Below, piece after piece: positions 1 through 34,100 of a stretch of 64,000 nt of DNA; the stretch's first letter is position 1, and the number at the start of each line of letters is the position of its first letter. Source of the DNA: Ectocarpus siliculosus (lineage: Eukaryota > Sar > Phaeophyceae > Ectocarpales > Ectocarpaceae); the NCBI GenBank assembly GCA_000310025.1, contig FN649743.1, positions 1,218,016 to 1,282,015 on the forward strand, written 5' to 3'. Below the pieces are notes generated by a model, which was not told the origin of the DNA, searched no databases, and worked only from the letters and a program-made list of their open reading frames with translations. The translations under genes were made by a program, and so were the position numbers.

Positions 1-249
1 GAACAAAATTTTTCACCAAACCAAAGGGTAAGCAAAGATGGTATTCATACTTTCTTCCTGTAAGTATCGGAGCCGCTGCCAAAAATATCACCGATATCTT
101 CGTATAAACACTCCGTTCGGCATCAAATCGCGATTTTACTCATTCGGGGTTCGCACATTCATTCCGGAGGAGATCCGACAGGCCACCGTCTAATTGGATC
201 TGTCTTAGTTTGCAATATTAAGGCCAAACAGCAAGGGTGTTCGCCTTAC

Positions 250-453
250 CAAATGCTCCGTCTTCGACGTAGCAACCATCATGGCATGCTCGACATCGGC
301 GGCTCCGAACACCTTAGGCTTGGTCCAGGTTGTGACACCCGTTGTAGCGTTCAGCCAGTAAGGTAGGTGCGTCGTCGGATCAATGAACTTGGAGATTTTT
401 GCTTGAGCGAGGCGGATCGCGCGGCAGCGCGCGCAGTACCTCCTTCCAAGAGA
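250..453 (-). other. Cys-pair plus WW-like exon of the multi-IQ gene
   Basis: A 68-codon exon, phase 0 at both ends, acceptor GCGCGCAG and donor GTAAGG. It begins with a YCARC cysteine pair and continues into a WW-like motif, with YWLNATTGVTTWTKP carrying the second Trp-Thr-Lys-Pro signature. The first aromatic position is Phe/Ile-Asp-Pro rather than a clear tryptophan, so the WW fold is degenerate or atypical. WW domains bind proline-rich ligands; whether this one does is unknown. Confidence 0.65.
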
Positions 454-3400
454 CTGCGCGCGTGAGCGAGGTCATGTATTGGGAGGTGTTAGAAACGGAT
501 TTGCAAGCTATTGGTGAACACGTATTTCGTTCACCTAGCGTAGAAAGCAAGACTGTTGCGGTACTTGTCTTTGTGCCCACTCGCCTGCAATTTGACCACC
601 TCCAGTGACTCTAACGCGGTTCTGGCCACTTTGTCGCTCTCCAGTTGCTTCTGCCTGAATCGTTTACGGCCGAGGTATCCTCGAATTGTCGCCTGAATCT
701 TGTTTGCCGATCGGAACACAAACCTGAGATGCGACGAGACGAGAATTTAGGGAAGGGGAGCGTGGATCTCGCTAGCTGTTCTCCTGGCCCTTGTCGTATG
801 ATGAGCATGATAGCCCACCGGTAGACGAAATAAAATCATCCCCTCAGTGTTAGCACTCTTGCATCGTCTTACTGTGCCTACTTGAGGTGTCTGAGTGACC
901 GGGGTTTCTTGTGGGGCCGGACGTCACTCTGAACGGCTATGTACTGCCACCTATTTTTACGCTGCGTACCGATTGGAGAGGCTACTGATGATGCGATACG
1001 ACGCTATCTTGACCGAAACAATGCGAGGTATCTGAATGGAGCCACCGACAGTACCTCGAACTACCCAAGAAGAAAGCTGGAAACCTTAACTTCAGAGCAT
1101 AGTGATAGGCTGCTTGGTGATGTTGGATTACCTTTCACCCGCTTTTTGGCAAAACTTGCGGTATTCCGTGGCTCCGGGAGCTTTGAGCACCTTCCCCTCA
1201 ACCAGCTCCAGCAGCCTCGCGGCCTTGGCTTTGAAAGCAAGGAAGTCACGAAACCGCTTGGTCTTCATCGTAAACCAGCCACAAACAAGCGGTCATGACG
1301 GGGGAGAGTGGGAGGGGAGCGTTTCACTGACGGACTGTGAGGCGGCTGACTGTCGATTCAAACATGTCTACGGTTGTCCCGTGTCTTCACCCTTTCCGTC
1401 TGCGAGAAACGTGTCAAGCATCACCAGTTGATTGATCGCTCGGATGGTGTCGAATGTAACCAACTCCTTCCAGACTTTGGAAGCACTTCTCAGCGTTCGA
1501 GTTTCAGCAACCTTTTCTCCCAAGACGTGGCGTGTAGTTTATCCCGCAAATGCAGGCGAACCCACACTACGTGATCGGGCTCATTTCTTGTCGTCGCTGG
1601 GTCCACAACAACAGTCTCAATCACCGATTGTTGTTCTTCACATGTTTGTGTCGTTCAACAATCGTTGTCTGCCACGAGGCTACGTTCGTCGGGTCTTGTC
1701 TATTTTACCTGCGCCACATAGGGTCCGACGTCAAACTTGCCGTGGCAATCGCGGTAGTTGTATGAACCTCTTCCAGACTTAAATTTGACTTCTTTCTTAC
1801 CTTCGGGAAGAGGGTGGCCGCTACCACGTTGAGGGCAGCAGCGAATTGCGCGTACGTGAGGGTCTTCTCGTCTTTGTCCTTGACCTGCGTCATACGAGGC
1901 GAGGCGATGTGATAGTCGACGTCGCCATGCCTCCGTTGTGTTACCATCCGTGAAACGAAACAACAAGAACCACATGTGTGTGGGTGGTCTACATTTTCGC
2001 GAGTGGTTGAGCATCAGTTTCTGTCGGTGGAAAAGCATATCGGATGAGGTGAAGATACCTATTCCTCCACAGCAGGATGGGGACACATGTGCAGCAAACG
2101 GGGTTAGCAATGGTTTCGATCATAGGTTTCGTCGTCGACGTTGGTTGCTGCCTCTTTCTCTTCCTGTTCCTTATTTGTTCCATGTCCTATCTAGTTGGCG
2201 TACTACTTTGGGGATAATCGCGTCTCTCAGACGCTGATTTGATGATAGGGGCGTTCTGCAGGGATGTGATAGGTACACGACAGAATCAAATTCTTTTCGT
2301 AGAAATAGGCGGTACTCTGCGTTGGCCCGTCAAATGAAAAGTTGGTTGAAGATCACACTCTACCATCGACGGGACGCAATGGATTGCGTTCATTTCAACC
2401 CCCCAAACTTGTTCATACTTGTTTAGAATACGACTGCTTCATGCCAGCCCTGGAAACACAAGCGACCCCAAAACGCGCCTATTTGTTGTCGTGGGGTTAC
2501 GGGCGTGCAACATGCTGAACAAAGGTGATATTGTTGGCATGGACATACATGTACTTGTGTTGTACCCACCCTGGCGAAGACAAGGTCGACATCGGTAGCG
2601 AGGAACGAAGAACTAAACACCCCAGGAGTGCTTGCGAACAGCTTGTTGAACGCCCTGCCTTCAAGGCGGAAAGAACCTGATCCTTCTTCTCCGCTCCGTT
2701 TCACCGCAATTTTTCTGAAAGTTTCAGGAGGAAAAGAGGGCTTGAGGGTTCGCTCCAGAATGACCAGGCTCGAAGCTGGCGATGGGAGGTGGTACTGAGG
2801 TTGGTGACGACGGGAAACCTAAGTTGTTCTCGAGCTCGAGCAGAACAGGTACGGGGGTAAAAGAGGGACGGAAACTCCGAGGCTAGGACCGGTACGGTCA
2901 TACAAGTCCCTCGGGAAGATACTGTTGGGACGATGGAAGTGAGCCGTAAGCTCACCGGAATATGAACTGTGTGACTCCATCACCCCTGCAGGTCGGCGCA
3001 GCGGCTCCCTCCACGATAACCCTTAACAAAAAAAATCGGGGAAGATACTATCAATCACCGGGGCTTGATATCGAAGTGCAGAGAGCCGAGAGTGCTGAGC
3101 CGCATTTGTGCAGCACCGCCCCAACGTCGGTGGGTCTTGCTCTCGCCAACCAAGGAAGAAATCAGGGCTTCAGTGTGGACGCTATTCGCGAGTCCCTCGC
3201 CTTGGACAGTGAAACCCGTGCAACCGACAACTATATCCTCGAATAGGGTTGCCGCCGTATGATTGTCAGGACGGCCAACGTTTGCCGCTCACACGTAAAA
3301 GAGAGCATAGGGCTGCTTCTACCACCACATTGTTCCCATCCGCGCGGGTGGGATGCGGTCAACGACTGCAGTGCCAAACGGTGTGATACGGAATGTATGA

Positions 3401-6400
3401 CACTCCCTGTCGTACTCATCACCACACACCTCAGTCTGGCTCTTTCGACGCAAAAGCGGCTCATTTCCTTGGCCATTGTGGTCATCTCCCACTCGATTTG
3501 CTTCGCCTTGACCAGCTTGTTGCGCCGCCGTCTGGCCAGGTATCGGCGTGCGGTGGCTTGTATCGCGATTGCCGGAGCTGATGTCGTGACGGCTTCTCGC
3601 CTCACACGAGCTGCCAGAGATCGAGCCTGCAAATATAGCGAACGTAGGGAGTAGGCAAAAATGGGCGGTTGTCAATTTGTTGCAGACTCTACTAGTTTCG
3701 TTCGACCACATTTAGGACTTTTGGTTCAAGACAGCTGAGGGTTTGGGGGGGGTTGGATGGAAGGAGGAATTATGGTGCTTATCGTTGAGGTGTGTCGAAT
3801 GGTTGTATGCTTGTATCGTGATACTTGTAGTCAACAGCCATCCCGAAGGACGTAGTACAGGCTTCAGCGACGGACAAATTTTCTTTCGCGAGTAGTGCAA
3901 CTTGCACTTGGTGTTGATGAGCAAGGAGACAGCCGGCCGACGGCCCCGTGCCTGGTCTCAATTTGCGATAGCTTGGAGGCGAGATCCACCCCCTAGGTAT
4001 TGCTACGTCCGGCACCACCGAGAACAAGTTGTTCAAATAAACTACATTGGTAGATAGAGATCCCGCTTAAGGCAACGATCTCCATCACCTGCGCTCCCCG
4101 TAGCCTTCGCTGCAGCACAGTGGCAGCCTGAACGCGTTGTCGCCTGTCTGCAGCGGCGCGCTTCCCCAGGAAACCCCTCCAGACCTGAAAAAGAGGCCAT
4201 AAAGAAAAAGAGGCCATAAAGAAGGACTTCGAGAGCATCTCAATAGCTTTCGTAGCAAACGTTTGCCACCGATATATCGCTCTGCGTCGTAGCGCCACAC
4301 GCGAACAAAGAACCCATCGTACTTGGCTAGTGTAGCTGAACTCGAACGTTTTAGTCCGGCAATATCGACGTCAAAGTTCCTCGTGAACCAAGTACCCTTG
4401 TGAGCGCCTGGAAATCGACCTAACTTTGGCTTGATGTGACTTGACTCACTTTTTGTACCCTGACAGCTCGGAGGCCGTATCGCCGAGACTTGGCCTCCAC
4501 CCTTGCGCGTCGTCCCCTGAAAACACGCTGGAGGTTGTTTGCTGCCTGGTAGTCCACAACGAGAGAATCAACTAGACAGTATCGTGAAACCATCGAAGAG
4601 ACGTGGAGTTGTAAAAATAGTGCTGCAGAGAGTCTCCCGACACAAGAGGTAGTCTCGCAGAAATTTGATACCGTTCAAGAGTTTCGTTATGGACTGATAC
4701 AGAACCACACCTTTCAAGTTGAATCATCGAACGGGCGAGGAGTAGTTGCAAGATACCCGTTCGTTGTCTCAGGTTTTCGAACCAATAATTAAAATTTCCA
4801 CCGAGTGCACCCGACATAGTTCCTTTTCTGCTTTGGAAGTACAAGCGTCAAACATCAGTGCAACTTGGCATCAGAACACAAAGTTGTATGCTTCGCACCC
4901 TGTACTGTGCTTCGCGGCGGGCTTCAGCATCCTGTCGACGTCGTTGAACCCTCATCCGCCGAATCCGCACGACCTTGGTCATGAGAGAGTGCAGTATGAC
5001 GACGGAGTGAACACGAGCATGTAGGGGGACGCGAGTCACGCGATCGCCGAACCGCGAGTTCTAGCACAGGAACGTGTAGTGGGGGGGGGCTTCGCGCAAC
5101 TTGGGGTATATTTTGGCAGGAAGGGACCGCCCCAGGCTGTTGCTCTCAAAATTGTCACGTTCCAACTCAGACGTTGCTCGGACACCATCTATGTCAAGCC
5201 ACAGCAGCTCCATGCTTACTTACTGAAACTTGTGTGGGCCCCCTTCTTTGTCTGCAGTCGAAACCCTAACGCAATCCTCTACCGTGTCAGGCAATAAACA
5301 CCTGTCTGTGAAATCGACACCAGATTCGTAGACGAGAACAGCCGACTGCAAGTTCGTACGGCAACATCAAGGGTCAATATCAGACCTGTCGGTGGCTCCT
5401 GAACAACGCCTGAATCTTGGTGGCAGCTTTTCTGTCCGTCGACTCCTGCCAAGGGTTAATTGCTCGTCTCTTGTCGGCCAGCAATATCTGTTACATTGGG
5501 ATTCAAAAGAGGAAAGGTTTGCTGCGTTTGTCGCCCTTGGTAGAAAGAACGACACCCACGAGATGTTCGCAAACGCCTCGAGCAGACTCCATAGCTGTTA
5601 TCGTAGCAGTCAGCACTCCCGTGCGCTCGGGCAACTGCAGGCGGTAGTGGAAGAGGCGCGTTGATCCGATCATGGATCCGAAGAGTGACACGATCAGCGA
5701 TGGCCGTTGTACGAGATTGAAGAGTGGGTAGGATAGAGGTATCATTCTGATACAGAAAAAGGACATACCAACACAGGGTACGCCTATACTTCCGACATAA
5801 GTGTTGAACTGTCAACGATGTTTAGTCGACTAATAGACGTTCGTAGATTCGTGCTGTGCTCGAGACAATTTAATCCAATCCTGGTATTCACGCAGATTCT
5901 GTTGAGGTACGGCCACTAACGGCTGTTGCGAGATGCAATTAAGCCTCTTTTCTAAGGTGTTCCTCAATAACCGGTCCCTGCACACCACTCTTGCAACTTT
6001 TCGGTACGATTTCCACTCCCTGGGTGGTTGGGCGCGGTGTTACCTCTGAGGAGGTTCGCTACGCCAAAGCAGGAAAGAGCAGCACGTGCCAAACCTTGAG
6101 AGCGACAGGATCGATGATGTAGGGCATCCCTTTCCCCTGGGCGGACAGTACGGCCCCTTCCCGTGCTGCAACAGCCTTGATCCTCGGTACCTCTATCGTG
6201 CGGTTCCTCAAAGCACGCTCCGCGTCCATGGTTGACACCAGCTGCTCTCTGGTAGATATGATAGGTTTTAGGATGGTTGGGAGCCGAGAAAATCGAATCG
6301 CTATGTTCATGAGCAGTAACGTCCTTGTTTCAAGCGCAAAGTTGTTGGCTAGTGATGTCGCATGCAATCCAGAAGATGTGTTTCCCGGAGGCGGGGTTTG

Positions 6401-9400
6401 CCTCGCAGAATGTGCGATGCTTCGATAATTGAACATGTAGGGGCAGATGAAATTCCATTTAGGGACTCTTTTCCTTGAATCGTAGCCATCAGCAGTGTTC
6501 TCAGACTGTACCCCCAAGACCTGGATTGGGCGCATGTGCATACCATGATATGTATCTCAAGACTCAAATACTCCCATTCTTCCTCACTTTGATCGTTGGA
6601 AGCGCCTCTCGTCCACCCTGTTCCAAGCGATCTTCCGCCTGACGATACTCTGAATTTTGATCGCGGAGGCTATTTCATCCGCGTATCTTTGCGACAATGA
6701 AGCGTCGTCATCACCATCACCATCACCATCACCATCAAACAACAGCGTGAACGTCGGGAGTGGGGCGGGGGGCAGTGTCCGACTTTAGTGTCGTGTGTTC
6801 GACTTGTGACATCCCACTCAATCCGTTTGAAACAAAGCACTCTATAGGCGAGTCAAGATAACTGCGTGGCCCTAGACCGCAAGCAATCTTTGATGTTTGG
6901 TTGGGAACGCAGACGGGCAGAAGCTTCGCAGAATGACTTGCACGGGCGGGTTTCAACTGAACCCGAGCATTTGTTCCCTTCAAGAACAGTAATCCAGGTC
7001 AGCCCTTCTCAATATGAAATGCTTTGTACAGATGAGGCCAACCTTTCCCTCCGCCTACCAATCTTGTCGAGGTTGTGAAACGAACTCAGCAGTGCTAGCT
7101 CCTACCTGATCAAGAATGCCTCCTTCCTCTTGTGCAGCTCCTTCTTGGCGAGATAGACCCTCGCGGCGCGCTGGATTCGGATTGCTCGCGTACGCTTGCC
7201 TATCCGTACGAGGGCGCTGAGGTTGCGTTTCAGCACGCGCGACCGCCAGACGGCCTGTATCCTGGTCACAGCCCCCTCTCTCCGAAAGCGCTCCTGGAGA
7301 TTTCCACACCTTCACCAAGTGCGGTGCGGACAGAATTACAGCTGTAGCGTAGTACTGGTATTCCGACAGGATTGTGCATCAAAAGACATGTTCTTTTACT
7401 GGATACATCGCTGGAGCGCATGGCATGAAGCGTTTTAACTGTGAAAAGCGAGGACCAGAAGCAGAGATATAAGACTCCAACGAAATATAGCATCCACGTG
7501 TTAACAACACTACTTCTAAAGTACACCCCACACTACCAGGGTTAAAGTAGAGCGGGTTGGTGGTTGACGTATGGCAGACGGGGATTTCTCCCACCTGCAG
7601 TAGCTACTGAGCGATTGTGCAGGTGCTTCCGACATACCCATTGGGCATATATTATAGCACATAAGTTGAATGTGGTAACCTTTTTTCAAACAGAGCCTCC
7701 CGCCTAGCTTGGGCTTCCACTTTGGCAGCAACCTCCGCGCGAAGTTTTTCTCTGAACTCTCTTTCACGTTGCTCTTCTTCTTCTTCAGCTTCTCTAACGC
7801 GTCTTTGCTCCTTCCGCCATCTCCGGGCGCGAGCACGAGCGTTCTTTTGCCTTTAGGCGTACGAAAAGTACCGATTCAGCATAAATGTGTGAAGCACGAC
7901 GCAGATTGTCAGAGACGGAGAGTGTCATGCTATTCCATGTCAACATCGTGGCACATTGTAGCATTGTGAGGTAGGCGGAAGAGATGCCTTAGAATTACAG
8001 GACATCCGTCGCAGACGAGCGGCTCGAATATTCCATTTCAATGGAGATCTAATGCACAGTGCTTTAGGCGGCTTCTGTAGGCTACACCATAGCGACCGAT
8101 ATTGAAAAAGGTGAGGTTACTTCGACGTCGGACAAGTTAAAGAACGTCACGGGTGTACCACATAAGGGCAAGTGATAATCGGCTGGCTTTCTGTTTGTCC
8201 ATTAAAGACAGAACGACGAAAGTTGTTCGGTATGAACGGTGGCGTACTGGAGCGGCGTGCTACGGAAGTCGCGTATCGCAACCCTTACCTCACAGCCCGT
8301 TGCACCCTGCGTGTGGCCTGCAACAGGCACCGCCTCCGTTGCGCTCGTCGGCGACCGCTCTCCCCACGAATCCACCTCTGCAGCGTCAACGCTTGATTTT
8401 GCCTGCGTTGTACAACTCGTTCCACCACACGCTTGGCGTGTCGGTCCTGACATGAGCATTTTTAGTTCTTATCGTTGAGTCTTGTCCAATGTTCGGTTTA
8501 AGGGACGCAGCCGCAAGGTAATGGCGGGCCAGTGTGTGCCAGCTTTTGAAGCAACAATCGACGGGAAAGTTCTCACAGCTGACCACTGCTTTGTGCCTTG
8601 TTCGGAAGCGTACAGAAACGTTTTGCATCGTATCTCCTACTGGTATTGTGCCATATCCGATACGTTAAGGGTAGGGGCATTCCCCGTGTGGCGTACTCGG
8701 TCTTTTGCCGCACAGAACCAACGACTGCGCAACAACCTTATTGCGGCTGGACCTGAGCGTTTTCTCTCACCTGGTTGTCTCTGAGTCTTCGCCTTTCCGC
8801 AGCTTCCGTGATGGCTAGCGTTCGCCGCAAAGAGCGTTGAATAAGCACTGTCGCACCCAGATACCCCGCGAGTACGCTTTCTCCAGACACAGTCTTGACG
8901 GCGCGGTGGATTTGGTTGGACGATGGAAAACTGTAGTCAGGACATGCAGTGTCTGATGGTGTACTCACCTTCCACAATCCGAAAGCATTAATATAGAAAA
9001 CGTAAGCGTTCTCTTCTTGTACGTATATGCTCCGATCGTATTCTCAAACCCATCAAGATTACCCGGTGTTTGTGCACATCACGTATTCTCTCTTCCACAG
9101 CTACGACGACGTAAGCCCAATAACCTAGTAGCCTTGTGTCTCGGATCAAAGAAAATAGCACGTCGTTTCTCACCTTCCATTTACGAAAGGCCAGGAGCAA
9201 GAACTCCTTCTGGGCTCTGAATTGCATCGACGAGAACAAGGTCTTGGCTAGGTCCCTGAGAAGAACATTCCCCTTTGCACCCAGTTCGTCCGCCGCCCTT
9301 TCCTGCTGTACCCCTTCATCCGTACTACCTTGTTGTGTTCCCCGACCAACAGCTAATGCATCCGCACCCTCCATTTTCGTGGTATGTTGCAGCCGCTGTC

Positions 9401-11444
9401 TTTGTGCGGCTCCTATTGCGCGCAACTCCCGAACAGAGAGAACGGAAGGGCTGCCGGATCGCCGAGCCTCAACTTTGTCCTCCGGCTCGCCCAGAAGGGT
9501 ACGCAACCGGCGCAGATTGTCCGCGAGATCCTCGCGATGCTGGGACTCGTCTACCCCGATGACCTTCATGCGTTCGCTCATTTCTAGACCCTCTTCGCTT
9601 TCTTCTGCCGATGCTCCTGCTGTTGTTGCTGTTGCTGCCGGTTCACTCGGGCCTCGCCCATTCGAGCGTCTTATCTTGGTTGTGCTACGGCTGAAAGGCG
9701 AACGTTTCGGAGAACCCGTGATGGGCGAGCTAGAGTCCAACGGGTCTTGAAAACAAGACGGGCTAATTGTCGGAAGAGTTGTCGTTTTGTCCGGTCTTAA
9801 AAGTCCGGCCAGGACACCGTTGCTGTGTTCGGTAAGGCTTTTTGCCACGGCCGTGCTTTTGGCGGCCGCCAGTACCTCCGTTCGACTGGTGATCGTTGCC
9901 GTGAGATCGTCTATGTCAGTTTCGACTAGGCCCACTTGTCTGCGGCCGATGGTGGAGTACAGGCCACCTGGTTTTTTTCGGTCGAGCTTCTGCGCCGAAA
10001 AGTTTCTGGCGGCTTGTTCGACGCGCTGTGGCAGCAATGGGAGCGCGTGAAGCCCGGAAGTAGCAAGGCGGCAGGGGGGCGTACGAAATATCATACAACC
10101 GCAACTTGGCGGAAAACAATCACCCTATGAGTATGAAGAATACAACAAGATAGTTGCGATTTCACATGGACACAAACATTGTCCTTACGCCATGTACCAT
10201 GAGTGAACCACCGTCGAACGCCAGTATAGTAACAGTTGGAAGAAACAGGATTGGGCGCATCTACCTGAAGGTTCTCAAGTTCGCTTTCTTCCGGCCGAGG
10301 AAGGCGCCGAATTCTCTTTGACGTCCTAGGAGATATGAGGCTTACTACTGCTGCGCCGGCTGAAATTGGGCGCGGCGGGTAGTAGTCGAATGAATCGTGT
10401 TCGCACGGAGATTTCGTTGAGCACCGCAGACTCGATCGAGAGCTCGATCTTTGACCATCATTGTTGTCATGTAGTGTCGACGATGATGCCAACACCGCTG
10501 TAGTGAGAGCCTCGACATGACGTCCCAGAGTGTCATAGCTTTGGCTCGGCCTGGTCTCTGGAGTCTGATTCGTCTTGCTCCCACCTAGCACGAATCCAAT
10601 GCTGCCTTCACCTCGTCTTTGGAACCTAGTGCCCTCTTCAAGCAGAACGGTACGCCCACCGCTTGTATGCGGTGACCCGTCATTTTGTGCCGTTTGGAGT
10701 TTTTTTCCGTCACCATTCGCTCGGCTATTCTCGACAGTTTTCAGTCGGTCGAGCTTGTGCTCTAGCTCTTCTTGCTTTGCCCTAGACGTCCCGATATTTC
10801 GAGCCCTCTTCGTGTTAGGGTATGGTCTCTTGCCGAGACGGCCGACAGCAGCTGAGCCGCTCAGTGCCAAGGGAGCACGCGCGCCGCCGTGGCCAAATGC
10901 CCTTGATGAACAAGCTCCATGGTTCACGGATAAGTATGCCTGTTTGCACGCGGTGGACCGAGTACACGATGGTCGCTAAGAATACCTGGAGAGTACCACA
11001 ACGCACATTATTTGCTTTGTAGTTAATCATGGAAGTGTATACGAGTAGTAACATTGCTACCCAAACCCTTACACCTTTGAGAAACAAATCTCCGACACTT
11101 TGTTGTACGGCAACTACTGCTGTACACAGCAGTACAAAGGTACATAAACAAAACAGCAATATTGTGTATACTATGACTCCAGTCAATGAATGCACTGTTA
11201 ATTGTGTAACCTGTACGATCTCGTCTGCCTCTTCAGCGGGATCGAGCACGTGTTTCGCCGGCAGCTCCTTCTTTACGGGGCCCACGCGCCTTCGGCTGGC
11301 GAAGTCGTCGAGGAGCTCGTGGTATGAACAACTGTCATGTTCAAGCCTCGACAGACGGTCTAGGATGCATGGTAGCGTGACCTCGCCATCAAGGTCATCG
11401 CAACCGGCATGCTGACGAACCCGAACCTCGGCGGTAGCAGCCAT
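250..11444 (-). CDS. Large multi-IQ-motif protein with p25-alpha and WW-like domains (3'-partial)
   Basis: Likely a calmodulin-binding cytoskeletal or ciliary scaffold; this role is inferred from domains. Phase-consistent exons, 5' to 3': 11211-11444 (ATG at 11444), about 10265-10828 (this acceptor is a guess), 9174-10025, 8969-9010, 8771-8893, 8289-8446, 7680-7850, 7106-7309, 6588-6686, 6095-6248, 5386-5487, 4899-4973, 4450-4545, 4089-4184, 3430-3626, 2570-2714, 1801-1884, 1425-1511, 1132-1262, 600-723, 250-453; roughly 1320 codons in the window. The N-terminal third is Ser/Arg-rich and low complexity. IQ motifs sit in exons at 8771, 8289, 7106 (two), 6588, 5386, 4450/4089, 3430 and 600, for example AIRIQRAARVYLAKK and AIAIQATARRYLARRRR. 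Exon 7680-7850 is an Arg/Glu-rich coiled coil. A p25-alpha domain spans 2570-2714 plus 1801-1884, and a WW-like exon is 250-453. No stop codon was reached, so the gene continues beyond base 1. Single-base errors in weak exon borders (8969-9010, 10828) are possible. Confidence 0.8.
1801..2714 (-). other. p25-alpha (TPPP-like) domain, two exons
   Basis: Part of the multi-IQ gene. Exons 2570-2714 and 1801-1884 join in phase 0 and together read as one p25-alpha domain of about 76 residues. The diagnostic strings are TDVDLVFARV at the end of the first exon, followed by VKDKDEKTLTYAQFAAAL in the second; this matches the family pattern TDVDxVFxKVK...R-T-I/L-T-F-xx-F-xxAL seen in tubulin polymerisation-promoting proteins. 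Known family members bind or bundle microtubules and are typical of ciliated eukaryotes. Microtubule binding here is inference. Confidence 0.8.
3430..8893 (-). other. IQ-motif array encoded one or two motifs per exon
   Basis: Consecutive exons 8771-8893, 8289-8446, 7680-7850, 7106-7309, 6588-6686, 6095-6248, 5386-5487, 4899-4973, 4450-4545, 4089-4184 and 3430-3626 carry IQxxxRxxxxR-type motifs. Some are canonical (ATKIQALFRSHRQ, ATVLQRRLRG). Others are cut by an intron: the end of exon 4450-4545 (RAVRVQK) and the start of 4089-4184 (VWRGFLGKR) form one motif only after splicing. IQ motifs bind calmodulin or related EF-hand light chains. The regular arrangement suggests growth by exon duplication. 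Confidence 0.8.
6704..6738. repeat. Microsatellite of CATCAC units
   Basis: TCATCACCATCACCATCACC and onward, ending CATCAAAC, about five hexamers in the intron of the multi-IQ gene just upstream (on the minus strand) of exon 6588-6686. Nothing else in the segment is notable. Confidence 0.85.
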
Positions 11445-11771: not shown

Positions 11772-14700
11772 ATGCAGATCGTTAGACCTCGTGACCTGTG
11801 TACCTCTTTGCTTGTTGCAAGCAGACCTCATCGACACGCGGTACGGCAATGTGCGAGAAGACCACGCGTACAGTGGTTAAGTGGCGCCGACTCTTACTCC
11901 CTGCCCAAGTCAAAAGGGTTGCCCTATCGGTTGCTCCAGCATGCTGGGGGAATCGAGGTGTCACTTCCAGAGCAACGCCGCTTTTTTTCGCTGAGGGGAG
12001 GAGGGAGCGCAGGTGGAATTTCATCGAGGAATGCCCGAGTGGTGATCGATGTGCAAGGGCTCAAGGTTTGGTGCTACATGGTACATGTAGATACGCCGTT
12101 CGGGCGTTGGACTCTGCGCACACGGTTGTAAACATATAACTCCATTTGGTGTTGGGGAGATATCTATCGAGGGGTCCGATGCCAAAGAAGGACGATTTGT
12201 GCTTGAGTACCGGCGAGACCAATCATAATGCTTGGTTTGAACGCAAGCAAGTTTGGCATTCCCCGTGCAAGTTGAACGCGTCTGTTTACTCTCCCCAGTC
12301 TTACGAGTTAGTGCCTGCGTGCCAGCCGCCAACCTCACGTTTTCGTATTTCTGTGCACCACGCCTTGCAATATGCACACCAAGTGATGTACACCACCATT
12401 CTTCACGTTTTGTAGTGTATTCGACGTGTTTGCACTACTGCTGTGCCATGGTGTGCGGTGGAGTTCCATGGCGTCCTACGATGTGCCGTCACGATGTGCC
12501 ATGGTGTGCCGTGGTGTCCCATGGCGTCCCATGGCACGGTCCATCGACCTGTCCATACTTTGTCCAAATAGTATATATGGTACGGTTGGGAGTGTCTTGG
12601 ATGATTTCACATCGCATTCGGCGTGATCCGATCCTGCACCTTACGTCGTGAGTCCCGTTCAAATCTCTGGAGTGTTCATCTGCCCTGTCCCGCAAGAAAT
12701 CAAGGACAAAAGAGGACACCCACGTACATATCGCCATTATTTCTAACGAATCCTACTCCAACGTTCTGCCGGTTGCAGTGCGGAGGGTGTGTGTCGAGGG
12801 GAGAGGCGGCTTTGAAGGGGGTGCCAGGTGTGGGAGAGGCCACCATCAACCTAGCAACAGGCACCGCCACTGTTTCACTATCCGGTAAGAAATATGTCGC
12901 AGGTCAAATACTGTCGGTTCGAACAAAATGATGATGTGCGCCAGCACTGCTTTCAGAATTGAATAAGCCCTTAGCAGTGGCACGCGGCCTTGTTGGAGTT
13001 GGAGGTCAGACGAGGCTGCTCAAATGGCTAGTTTCGTGCTGCACGCACGCACTCGGAAGTTTTCGAAGAATGACTCGAGGATTTTCACGCCGTCACTTCA
13101 TTTATGTTGCGCCTTAAGGTGCCACAGATGGAGGAGGAACCCCCGTCGCCACTCCAGCGGATCTCGTAGCAGCCCTCGCTTCACAAGGATATGCCTCCGA
13201 AGTCGTGCGGATCATCTCGGACCTGGAAACTGGGAACCAGCAAAGCGTATCGAGAGGGGAAGAGAGGTGCGGCCTGACCCTGAATGCCATAACATCCGCG
13301 CTTGTCCGAAATACGAGAAGATGAATAATTTCAGTTCAGTTGGTGGTGGTGGTGGTATGCGAAGACTAAAGCAACGTCCGTCATAACTGTTTTTTGTCTC
13401 CGCCCGTCTGTATGCGTCGGAACAAATCTCATGCAGTGAACATCCTCACGACAGCATTCTCTCTTCCTCTTTCTTGTCTTTTTTGTATCTCTTTTTGATC
13501 CATGTTGTGCACAAGACCTTCCCATACCTTTTCGGCAGCGGTTCGTGGATGCGACAGTAAACCAGCCCCGAGCCAACCGATCAGTAGCTTTACCCTATTT
13601 TGTCCTTTGCATACATCTCCCTCGTTGCCGCTATGCAGTATGCGCCTTCCCCCCGCCTTCTCTGCCACGACAGGGAAGCCATCACGCCTGCACAGCGCCA
13701 CGAGCGGGAAGCAGCGGAATCCCGACGGCGTGTCCAACTAAGCATCCTTCTCCTTGCAGTCTCTGCTACGGCGCACCTCGGACATCACGCTCATCACCTG
13801 CTTCCACTGGGGCATGTCCCGTTCTTCTCGTTGTTGCCAGCGGGGTGGTTCGATTGGCTTCAGGCCGGGGTTGCCACCGCAGCGTTGGTTGGGCCGGGTA
13901 GGTCGTGGGCACGCATACTTGCACCTTGTGTACTTGTTGGGGGCGGGCTGTCGCTCCGGTAGTAGAACAACGACCAGGGCCCTTTGAGATATTGTTGTAC
14001 AGTGCGATTTGATTCTCCTCTGTTTCGCGTAGGATTGTCATGTGTTTGGCTGGAAAGAACTGCAAGAACCCATGGAGTGTTGACGTCATGCATATACCAG
14101 TCCACCCGTCGCCCCTTCACCCCACCATCGCGCTGACCGGCTGTTGAAACAGGATCGAATCTTATCAAGTCGGGATTGGCATCGCTACGACGGTTGTCCC
14201 CCGACATGAACTCCCTAGTGTCGACGGGAGTACTAGCGGTGTACCTGTCTTCATTGGTCTCGTTACTGAAGCCATCTCTCGGACTAACGGCGACATTCCA
14301 CGAACCGGTACGCAACCGTTTTGAGACAAAGCTTAAGTAGTCGAAATGGGGAGGATTTCAGGGGCACCGCAGCAGAGGTTTTGGCCACTGTGGCCAGGTT
14401 GGTGTGGTGCAGACATCAAAGATTTCTCTCCACCCCATGATTTTCCTCGACCACAAGCTCCATGTTGTTCGTTTAAGGTTATCTCGTTGTTTCGAACAGC
14501 TTCAAGTATTCTAGTAATATTCCGGGGCACAACATATCCTATTCTTTGGTTCAAGCTAGCGACCGCTTGCGAGGATCGTCCGCGTCTGGGTGCCCTAGTA
14601 CAGCGGCGAAAGACGCATGTAGGATGCTGATCACCTGTTACCTACCCAATAAAAGCATTTTTTCGAAGAGATATTTCTTTCGTTCCCGAAGTCTTTTTGG

Positions 14701-29591: not shown

Positions 29592-31183
29592 CTACACCAG
29601 GTAGCTCTCGATGGATTCCCCCAAGACTCCTTCGATGTACTTGACCAAAGCGCGGCACTCGCTCTCAACTTCCGGATGACCGTCCTGCGAGGGAAACAGC
29701 GTAGACGAAAAGAAACAATCGACGTCAGAGGGGTGAAACACAAATCGGTACTCATGCGATATGCAACACGAGTCTTACCAGGAGCGGCCACGCAAAAAAG
29801 TGCTAAAGGGAATCCAAAGCTGTCTTCCAAACACAAGAGAACAACAGTTCAATTCGTAGACCCTAACGACCATCCATCTATCTGCATTTCATACAACTTC
29901 TGTTAAGCTTTCTCACCTCCAGTAGCTCACTCAGGAATGGCAAGCACTCCGGCAGCAGCGCCAGGAACTCCTCCCCGACCACCTCGAAACACTGCCGCAA
30001 CGAAACCAGCGCCGCCACCCTCACGCCCGCCCTCCTCGACCTCGTCTTCATCAGCACGGCGTTCGCCAGCGCCTTCCACAGCGCGTCCTTGCCCGACGCC
30101 GACGCCAACTGAGCCAGGCACGGCCCCACCAACTCTTCCGCGTGGAGCCGACAGGACGAGACGTCATCCTCCGCTCCTCCTCCCGCTGCGGCAGCGGAGA
30201 AATCGGAGCCGCATTCCAGCTGGGCCACCACGGCAGGCAGCACCAGCTCGAAGCGGGTCTTGTTGACGAAGCCCGATCGGTCCGACTGGAAGCAGCGACG
30301 GAGGGCCGAGAGCACGAGGCGCGAAGCGGCCGACCGTCGCCACCGGAGCTCGGGAGTATCCTCTCCCTCTCCGTCGTTGCCTTCGCCAATCTCTTCGTCC
30401 GAATCTGATGCATCGCCCGAGGACAGAGTCTTGCGGCGCTTTCTCTTGCTGGAGGCTTCCTCACTGGCGCGCTTTCGCTTCTTCTTCTTCGCAGCAGCAG
30501 GAGAGCCGTTGGCTGCGACACTCGTCAGGAGGCTGGCAGCTTCCATGTCATCGCAACAGTCCGTCAGGACATGCGCGAAGTACGGCGTGAAAATGCTCTG
30601 TAGGATGGCGTAACGAGGGATCGTGCACAGCGTCAAAAGCACAAGAAACACTCAGCCCTGGAGACCCTTCTTTTATTCCGTTCAGGGTAATATAATCCCT
30701 CTGCTGCATGCCTTCACTCTCGGGATTCTCACAAGGCACTTCGGGGGCGTACATTCGCGGTTAAGGTGATCCCTGATAGAGACTCTAACCTGCATCTAAA
30801 GCGAGACACATTTCGGCATAAAACGCACCACTCAATTATGGCCCCACCTTTAAAGCCCCTGCAAGGCCATCGAGAACTCGGTAGAACGAAAGCCGTCGGT
30901 CCAGCGCCCCCAGAGTTGCCTTGAGGTCGCCCTCTCCAGACGAAACACCTGCCTTCCACTCGCAAAGGTGCAGAAACAGTGGCCTTAGCTCCACCTCGCT
31001 CAGCCTCATCACCAGGCCCACCAAGGCCGAAGACGCCTCGGTTTCCACGAGTGCGGCGCTTTCCCTTACTTGGGGAGTCGATCCACTCGCATGCTGTCTT
31101 CGGAAGTCGAGCGCTTGGGTCAGCAGGCGGGTTAACTGTGGAAGAGCCGCGGACGCTGCCGCCTTCTCCAGCCCCGCAACGAT
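29592..31183 (-). other. BP28CT C-terminal domain of UTP10
   Basis: Exons 30848-31183, 29917-30597 and 29592-29684. They encode MRLSEVELRPLFLHLCEW, a Lys/Arg- and acidic-rich linker (KKKKRKRASEE, then DSDEEIGEGNDGEGED), VRVAALVSLRQCFEVVGEEF, LLPECLPFLSELLE and the terminal EGVLGESIESYLV. This is the most conserved part of the family and fixes the identification. The basic run may act as a nuclear or nucleolar localisation signal (inference). Confidence 0.93.
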
Positions 31184-34100
31184 CTGAACGAGCGCGAGAA
31201 CACACGCGCGTACACGTGCCAAGGCACAAAAAACTGAACCCTGATTTGTGTCATGCGTCCTGACAAATTCCCCCTTGTATGTGCATTCACCGCATACGCC
31301 AAAATTGACAGAACGAGAAACATCCCATGTGTCACGCCCCCCAACGACTCTCGCTTCCCTTCTAGTACTACATGGTGCACTAGCTCACCTCTTGTACGTA
31401 GGCCAAGAGCCGAGCTATCGACCTCCCCGCGGCTCCCACTCCCTCCTCCTCGCCCGCCTTGACGCTCTCCACGCAGCCGGAGTAAGCTCCGCACACCGCC
31501 GGAACTAACAACCTCGCCTCGACCCCCGTCGAGAGCAACGACAGCACCCGGTCTGCAGCCTGCTTACTACCCGCCGCAGCAGGACTACCACTGGAACCAG
31601 CGCCAGCCGAGGCAGGCCGCAAGGCGACAGCCAAAATTCTCCCGAGGTACGGGCTCAGGAAGGACGGCAGGCTAGCGGCGACGGTGGCCACTGCCGACAA
31701 GGCGCTCGTCCAGAGCAGGCTCCTTCCCCCACCGCGCCCTCCGGCGCCAGCAGCGCCGTCCGTGACAGCCGTTGTAAAGGGCGTCTGAAACTCGAGGGCT
31801 TCGAGCATCGCGGGAAAGAAACGCGGCAGGCGGGGGAAGGCCCGGACACCAAGGACGGCGCATAGGGTAGCCACCAGAAGGAAGGCGCTCGCGCGAAGAG
31901 GAAGGATCCCATCGGAGCCTGGTTGGCCAACGGCTAGATAAACATTGCAGTGACATATGCATATATGGGGGAAGGAAAAGAAAAAGAAAAGAGAGATGAG
32001 CAAACGAGATGTGCATGGTGTAGAGCCCGCAGGTCTCGATCAGGGCGCACGGGTTTGAAACCGCTGCATGGGCATAACACACATCGTCCGCGCGGGTAGG
32101 TCCGGTATCGTGCACGTACGTCATGTTTCACGCGTTTCGTTACCTTACCTTTCGTGGTACTTTTCGAATCACAGAAAGAAACGTCACACCGTCCGCGTCT
32201 AGATACATGTAGACTGAGGGATTGGGAAGAAAGCAAAATAGAAAGCAGATTGTAGGCGACAGTACCAACAAAGCTCACCAGGCAGAGCGCCGGGTCCCAC
32301 CCCAGCCACCATTTCAGTGACGTCACCGAGGACGCCCTCGAACGCTCCTTGGTGCCGCCTTCCAAGCACGCGAGCAAGCACGTCCAGGCTCAGCAGCGCT
32401 GTCTGACGGTTGACGGCGCTCTCCTTCATGCCGTCTTCGTCACGATCTTGGTCCATTGCATCGGGTCCTCCTTCTCCTCCCTCCGGAGAAGACGGCCCCA
32501 TGACCTGATTTGATGATTTGATACAATTCATCAGCAGTTCAACGTCGAAAAAATGGAGGGTTTCAGCCACGACGTGAAATTTCGGGCAAGAAAGGTCATA
32601 GAGTACACGGTATCGCAATTTTTCGTGGTGAGTAAACCCGCCGCTACAGAGTGCTCACCCGACCGGATTGAGTAGACGCACGCCACATTAGTACTACATT
32701 CGAAAGTCCAAATAAAAATGCCAAGAGGACAATGCCACCCACCAACTGTACCCCAAAGCCAAACCAAAACCCTTCGCCATGTCACCGACCTCTTCGATTC
32801 CTTCTCCAATGTCATCATCGTCCTCTCCTGCCCTGCCGACAGACCTCTTGCCCATGGCCACGAGCCTCAAGGAGGGCACCATCTCCACGAACAAGCTTTC
32901 TTCACCCGGGGACAGCCGCGGCGCGCCCCCGCTCCCCCCTCCCTCGGCCGGATCTAGGCGGCGTGTGAACATCCGCAGGGCTTTCCGACGCAGGTGGGGG
33001 TCCTGACCCCGCAGACACACAAGACACAATCCACAAAATTACACAACACACGAGAAAGGGAGAACCACACGATGGGAGTACGTCAGTATCGAGTGTGGGA
33101 GAAGGAGAGCAAGTGCTGCTGTTGTGGTATATGGGAATGTCGTGACGACCAGCACGAGTCTGGGACAAGGAAAGGAGCAGGCTTCGGCAAGGACAACACC
33201 TTTTCAGCAGCGAAGCTGCACACCGGCGGGTATGGTTTAGACAAGACGCGTTCTTCCTCTGTTGCCTGGTACAACACGATTGCGTCATCGACAGCATCGC
33301 GCAACGGTTCACGACACGACCAACACCAGACCTTAAAAATCGGAATACAAACCAAGCACATCGGCGGCCGTCTACTTCGGTTCAAAGCCAATCTCAACCA
33401 TGTCCAACAGTAGATACGTAGATTCATGCACACAGATGTATCGGGTTGTATATCCGCAACACCAGAGAAGCAAAAGGCTGGAGCGGGAAAGTAGACCCGG
33501 GCCGCAATAAAACATGCGTTCGATGTAGCAGGATTGGACAAACCTCGGCAGGTGGGGAAAAAAGGCCCCGCCGGGGTAAGTTTTGTTCCTGCAGTCAAGC
33601 ATTGGGACACGTAGCGAAGAAAGCAACAACCCATATTCTACCCTTCCGACTACGACTGCCGCAACCTTTCGCCAAAAAGAAGAACGGCGTATCATCCAAC
33701 AGCATAAAAAATATGCACAGCGTCGAACAGAGGGAGGCCCCCAAACTTGCCGCACCTAAAATTGCGAATCCACGCGCATGTTCTACAATAGTACGAGGTC
33801 AACCATAACAACACACGCCGCAGTGAGGTAGGGACCCAAATCATTGTTCACGACAAAAAAATACACAGCAAACAGGTTCAATTCAGACAGGCAGGCGCTT
33901 CACCAGTCGCCTGTCAAAAGTACCGCGGCACGACACCACAACGACGCCAGTCCTCATTGGAAAGAAGTAGTCTGTTCCACAGGTTTGCCTTCTGGAATTT
34001 TAATCAGCATACTTTTTTAATCACAGGACGGTATTAGAAGCTTCTCGTCATGACGTAGCCAGAGTCAAACAACACGACACACTCGTACACATACGGAGGC

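Follow-up and report, generated by a model that had tools for sequence, protein, structure and literature searches.

The window analysed here is a stretch of 64,000 nucleotides from contig FN649743.1 of the Ectocarpus siliculosus assembly GCA_000310025.1, and at one end of it we predicted a gene on the minus strand, running from position 11444 down to 250. The model was built from stop-to-stop frames and splice-site scoring. It has 19 exons separated by introns that all have GT-AG ends (18 of 18), and these exons join into a stop-free spliced sequence of 3882 bases, or 1294 residues, with phase kept throughout; the last exon of the model also terminates at a GT. The predicted protein begins with a low-complexity N-terminus, followed by an IQ array, the front part of a p25-alpha domain, one further IQ motif, and a Cys pair with a WW-like stretch, and p25-alpha is thus flanked by IQ motifs on both sides. 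This domain order had been proposed in a first-pass annotation of the same DNA and is borne out here in one open spliced predicted frame. The exons are given below in the order of the predicted protein.

11211-11444, minus strand: exon 1, amino acids (aa) 1-78, with the predicted start codon at 11444 (ATG in ACAATGG) and a weak donor (2.3)
10265-10939, minus strand: exon 2, N-terminal region of low complexity and mildly enriched in Ser/Arg; frame open, GT-AG, phase 0
9174-10025, minus strand: exon 3, N-terminal region, within a 378-aa open frame; donor 10.3
8771-8893, minus strand: exon with an IQ-like stretch, the pattern seen by eye; no Pfam family; acceptor -3.0
8289-8446, minus strand: exon with one or more IQ-like stretches, loose motif matches at aa 650 and 676; no Pfam family
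7680-7850, minus strand: Arg/Glu-rich linker exon, placed by open frame and splice sites
7106-7309, minus strand: exon with two IQ motifs; Pfam IQ, three stretches jointly with 6588-6686, 33.3 bits
6588-6686, minus strand: exon with one IQ motif, in a joint Pfam fragment with 7106-7309
6095-6248, minus strand: linker exon, placed by open frame and splice sites only
5386-5445, minus strand: exon with most of one IQ motif; Pfam IQ 25.4 bits, two stretches in the fragment
4899-4973, minus strand: basic exon, placed by splice-site scoring; alternative acceptor 5060
4450-4545, minus strand: exon with one IQ motif plus the beginning of a second, which runs on into the following exon; Pfam IQ fragments and motif matches
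4089-4184, minus strand: exon with the end of one IQ motif and most of the following one; Pfam IQ 20.9 bits, two stretches in the fragment
3430-3626, minus strand: exon with one IQ motif; Pfam IQ 14.1 bits, below the cut-off; motif match at aa 1021
2570-2714, minus strand: p25-alpha part 1; PF05517 E 2.8e-10 over the three p25-alpha exons, TPPP in the PDB E 1.8e-6
1801-1884, minus strand: p25-alpha part 2, same evidence as part 1; unspliced open reading frame (ORF) alone E 0.0015
1132-1262, minus strand: p25-alpha part 3; TPPP alignment reaches query residue 109; weak acceptor (-4.2)
600-723, minus strand: last IQ motif exon, after p25-alpha; Pfam IQ 25.3 bits, best stretch aa 1189-1208
250-453, minus strand: exon with the Cys pair and WW-like stretch; PF00397 25.0 bits against a cut-off of 26.9; three-stranded model, mean pLDDT 66

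In the surrounding DNA, a Pfam scan of 10 frames of the window gave no match at E up to 0.01 for eight of them. A frame at 12605-12931 on the plus strand, divergent from the gene studied here, carries a heavy-metal-associated domain (PF00403, E 7e-9) and is probably part of a metal-transport or metal-binding gene. Farther along, a C-terminal BP28CT domain (PF08146, E 2.4e-6) was identified at 29881-30651 on the minus strand, and the rest of a UTP10/HEATR1-like ribosome-biogenesis protein may be encoded by the long frames that extend on this strand to about 44.9 kb.

Overall, the most likely reading is a single nuclear gene, rich in introns, from a flagellated alga-like eukaryote; the scaffold protein predicted from it has at least about 1290 residues. 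The start ATG at 11444 lies in good context (ACAATGG), and because the PF00403 frame lies on the opposite strand at about 12.6-12.9 kb, this position is a sensible 5' end. The splice sites of the model score well above those of the region as a whole: the 19 model donors average 6.9 versus -0.07 for 715 GT sites (a mean in which impossible sites are clipped at -20), the 18 model acceptors average 0.9 versus -4.1 for 756 AG sites, and none of 20000 random draws reached the model average for either, although both averages are partly a selection effect because the exon boundaries were picked by hand from the splice-site listing and good sites were chosen. Several acceptors in the model are weak (-4.2, -3.0, and -2.6). 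Phase was assessed by fixing the exon frames first and then checking whether the best-scoring donor and acceptor agreed; most frames were taken from the motifs, and those of three exons (7.7k, 6.1k, and 4.9k) from openness or charge. Across the 15 exons from 8.3k to the WW-like exon, 12 of 14 junctions were compatible (binomial chance 8e-5 at a one-in-three expectation), a figure tilted in the model's favour because the anchors were set after the splice listing and because the first four exons (the three N-terminal ones and that at 8.8k) were left out. The two failures were the junction from 7.7k to 7.2k and that from the last IQ exon to the WW-like exon, and the four that link the IQ array, the three p25-alpha exons, and the last IQ exon in succession were all compatible. 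In addition, IQ motifs span exon junctions at aa 967/968 (mid-motif) and aa 999/1000 (final residues).

An unguided exon predictor, which was forced to start at 11444 and used a codon table partly trained on the exons of this gene, returned an exon set that differs from the final model and agrees with it only roughly. In its three best paths, a single frame was maintained between the start and the last IQ exon. The predictor skipped exons 8893-8771, 7850-7680, and 6686-6588, used different frames near 10.3k, 8.3k, and 4.9k, and shortened the 7309, 4545, 2714, and 1262 exons; its extra short exons, including 10124-10097, 6058-6044, 5783-5769, 5634-5560, 5251-5220, and 3021-2956, were omitted from the final model. 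At the C-terminus, three endings are available: the frame stops at 205 if donor 250 (score 7.5) is unused, an in-phase acceptor at 57 (2.3) or 75 (0.3) adds 14 or 20 residues before a stop at 15-13, or the next exon lies past base 1.

The N-terminal region had been described as Ser/Arg-rich, and it is indeed enriched in these residues, if only mildly (aa 1-303: S 11%, R 10%); for exon 3 (9174-10025), no Pfam family scored above the cut-off and the single match was at chance level (E 0.13). In the whole model, Pfam IQ (PF00612) scored E 5.8e-13 (47.8 bits versus a cut-off of 20.3) with five stretches at E up to 1, and counting stretches at that same threshold in separate fragments gave some Pfam support to nine IQ motifs, namely three, two, and two in three fragments, plus one each in the 723-600 and 3626-3430 exons. 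A loose IQ pattern matched aa 588-1294 nine times against a mean of 1.6 in 5000 residue shuffles, none of which reached nine, and a stricter pattern matched seven times against 0.34, again with no shuffle reaching the observed count; both patterns were written from the IQ consensus. The count of ten or more motifs in the first-pass annotation was therefore slightly generous with respect to the nine supported by Pfam, although exons 8893-8771 and 8446-8289, for which no Pfam family was found, also look IQ-like. Taken together, the predicted protein would hold about nine to twelve IQ or IQ-like motifs in a strongly basic array (net charge +88 over aa 588-1064). The Arg/Glu-rich exon at 7680-7850 (minus strand), located between IQ exons, perhaps forms a charged helix or coiled coil.

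The p25-alpha domain became recognizable only through splicing. The unspliced ORFs containing exons 2570-2714 and 1801-1884 matched PF05517 at E 0.18 (12.4 bits) and E 0.0015 (19.1 bits), respectively, both under the 22.6-bit cut-off. A first rough join by hand gave E 4.4e-11, the spliced p25-alpha exons cut out of the model gave E 2.8e-10 (41.0 bits versus 22.6, profile positions 16-84 of 153), and the domain inside the whole model gave E 1.3e-8 (35.7 bits). As the cut-off is passed once the exons are joined, the p25-alpha assignment previously made for 2570-2714 and 1801-1884 stands, the significant match (2.8e-10) being that obtained with a third exon, 1132-1262, which was absent from the first-pass annotation and into which the best PDB alignment extends. 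Among PDB sequences, the p25-alpha piece matched TPPP (9j4d, 1.8e-6; 9j4e, 5.2e-6; 9j4f, 1.8e-5), TPPP3 (2jrf, 5.2e-5), and CGI-38 (1wlm, 1.4e-4), the last of which we take to be TPPP3 as well. These five TPPP-family chains were all the PDB sequences listed at E up to 10, and a search with aa 588-1294 (E up to 0.01) likewise returned five chains, all of the TPPP family.

What the gene encodes is, as predicted, the folded front part of p25-alpha, and the C-terminal tail was not found in the part of the gene within the window. The GxGxGxxGR motif of that tail is absent from the spliced model and from every unspliced frame of 1-11444; its sole match in the window is at 32949. It may lie beyond base 1, because a fragmentary partial p25-alpha domain after the short one is mentioned for E. 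siliculosus (Orosz, 2012; PMC3498115). The predicted protein is thus not a long-type TPPP, which has the C-terminal GxGxGxxGR part, within 1-11444 or the spliced model, nor is it a TPPP in the strict sense, which has no domain besides p25-alpha, because the IQ array and the WW-like stretch lie in the same predicted frame. Searches with the p25-alpha core gave no match in a phage collection, 28 pattern matches of which none was confirmed in viral contigs, and 209 of which none was confirmed in prokaryote genome contigs; as these are collections of viruses and prokaryotes, the lack of matches says nothing about how the domain is distributed among eukaryotes.

Two alternatives to a single gene with this domain order concern its 3' part. 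In one of them, an IQ-array gene ends near 3231 and a separate downstream gene encodes p25-alpha, the last IQ motif, and the WW-like stretch. The frame of the 3626-3430 exon would indeed reach a stop at 3231 if its donor were unused; however, donor 3430 and acceptor 2714 are the best-scoring sites and are phase-compatible, the open frame upstream of the first p25-alpha exon contains no Met, so that the p25-alpha domain cannot start a gene there, and IQ and p25-alpha occur in single proteins of Ectocarpus and Phytophthora (PMC3498115). We therefore consider a pair of genes highly improbable. In the other alternative, the WW-like exon alone belongs to a different transcript or is a chance match. 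WW (PF00397) is the best Pfam match of the exon (E 1.9e-5), but at 25.0 bits it falls short of the 26.9 cut-off, and inside the whole model it drops to 19.6 bits (E 9.2e-4), also below 26.9. The match begins at profile position 8, and the first signature Trp of the WW profile lies within positions 1-7. A single-sequence AlphaFold model of the exon, of middling confidence (mean pLDDT 66), has three strands (20-24, 31-35, and 41-43) with helices around them. When this model was searched with Foldseek, none of the 268 matches had E up to 0.001 and the lowest was 0.34; WW domains (2ysi, 8pxw, and Pin1) were among these chance-level matches, none below E 0.70, and the best E against PDB sequences was 0.13. 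The junction joining the exon to the last IQ exon uses donor 600 (score 4.2), second to donor 535 (5.8), and the three best paths of the unguided predictor do not contain the WW frame. Against separating the exon stand its Pfam ranking, the three-stranded fold with WW domains among its weak structural matches, and the listing of p25-alpha, IQ, and WW together in one Ectocarpus protein (PMC3498115), and on these grounds we regard the separation as unlikely. The Cys-pair and WW-like exon of the first-pass annotation is accordingly retained as a WW-like stretch that is present but sub-threshold. The single Cys pair does not by itself make a B-box, and no B-box match at E up to 1 was found in the 1294 residues of a model that may lack the C-terminal end.

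With the single-gene model preferred, the question turns to what the protein might do. It had been suggested that fusing p25-alpha to IQ motifs would tie tubulin binding to calcium signalling, but this is unsupported by the domain as found. In human TPPP, the core alone neither bound microtubules nor promoted their assembly, and mapping placed the microtubule-binding sites in the disordered tails at the N- and C-terminus (PMC4542545); proteins with a short p25-alpha may lack microtubule function according to Orosz (PMC3498115). The step from p25-alpha to tubulin binding does not follow here because only the core was found and GxGxGxxGR is absent from the unspliced frames of 1-11444 and from the model, and tubulin binding through p25-alpha was rejected as a demonstrated property. 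A true microtubule-associated protein could still arise in another way, if the basic IQ arrays flanking the p25-alpha core replaced the TPPP tails and bound the acidic ends of tubulin, with calcium-calmodulin releasing them. The net charge of the array (+88) would fit, as would the electrostatic binding to microtubules suggested for the basic TPPP tails, which flank the core (PMC4542545). However, since basicity is a general property of IQ motifs, charge by itself is not very informative, and no conserved C-terminal part of p25-alpha was found in the portion of the gene that the window covers. We consider this reading possible but rather doubtful.

We find it reasonably likely, from the domains predicted, that this multi-IQ protein with a p25-alpha core and a WW-like module functions as a scaffold loaded with calmodulin in the flagellar apparatus. 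The IQ array would be covered by light chains such as calmodulin or centrin, which would make it stiffer in a calcium-dependent manner; the p25-alpha core would mediate contacts between proteins instead of polymerising tubulin, and the WW-like module may contact a proline-containing partner. The flagellar or basal-body apparatus would be the likely site because the p25-alpha domain has been reported to track the presence of flagella (PMC12731214; PMC10455874). It is a long shot that this scaffold works more specifically as a mechanical ruler or hinge at the base of the flagellum, set by calcium and docking through its WW module. A flagellar location, if correct, would make the protein a link between calcium signalling and the basal apparatus in algae.

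Raw genomic sequence thus supports a multidomain TPPP-like protein, and the gain is mostly a gene model together with a correction that can be tested, namely that tubulin binding should not be taken for granted for the p25-alpha part. According to Orosz (2012; PMC3498115), physiological data exist for two human TPPPs only. The architecture had also been put forward as undescribed, and this claim falls because the combination of p25-alpha, IQ, and WW is already in print for Ectocarpus (PMC3498115, Table 3); p25-alpha with IQ is listed there in further Ectocarpus and Phytophthora proteins, and we rejected the reading of an undescribed architecture.

Comparison with known proteins places the predicted protein in an existing group. 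Table 3 of Orosz (2012; PMC3498115) lists six stramenopile multidomain proteins, each with one short p25-alpha domain; four of the six have IQ, which together with B-box is the commonest further domain. The predicted model shares with this group a single incomplete p25-alpha domain within a long, IQ-bearing protein, and by its predicted domains the protein belongs with these stramenopile proteins. Human TPPP/p25 and TPPP3 (9j4d, 9j4e, 9j4f, and 2jrf) align over the core (query residues 15-109 in the best match), but TPPPs are short, stand-alone proteins with disordered microtubule-binding tails (PMC4542545), whereas no conserved C-terminal tail was found in the predicted protein. The WW domains of PRPF40A/Prp40 (8pxw and 1o6w) resemble about 20 residues of the WW-like exon at only E 0.13 to 0.56, and the first part of the WW profile is unmatched in this exon. 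Ectocarpus CBN75312 and Phytophthora XP_002905233 and EGZ26181 likewise have a single short p25-alpha and IQ in a long protein; in Table 3 they are listed with B-box and without WW, and in Phytophthora with the myosin-like COG5022. E. siliculosus CBJ49059 is listed in the same table with a short p25-alpha, IQ, WW, B-box, and zf-SNAP50_C. The last two were not found in the 1294-residue part predicted here, but both proteins have one short p25-alpha, IQ, and WW (WW-like in our model) within one long protein, and CBJ49059, compared here by its listed domains, may be an orthologue or a paralogue, or could even be the product of the very same gene.
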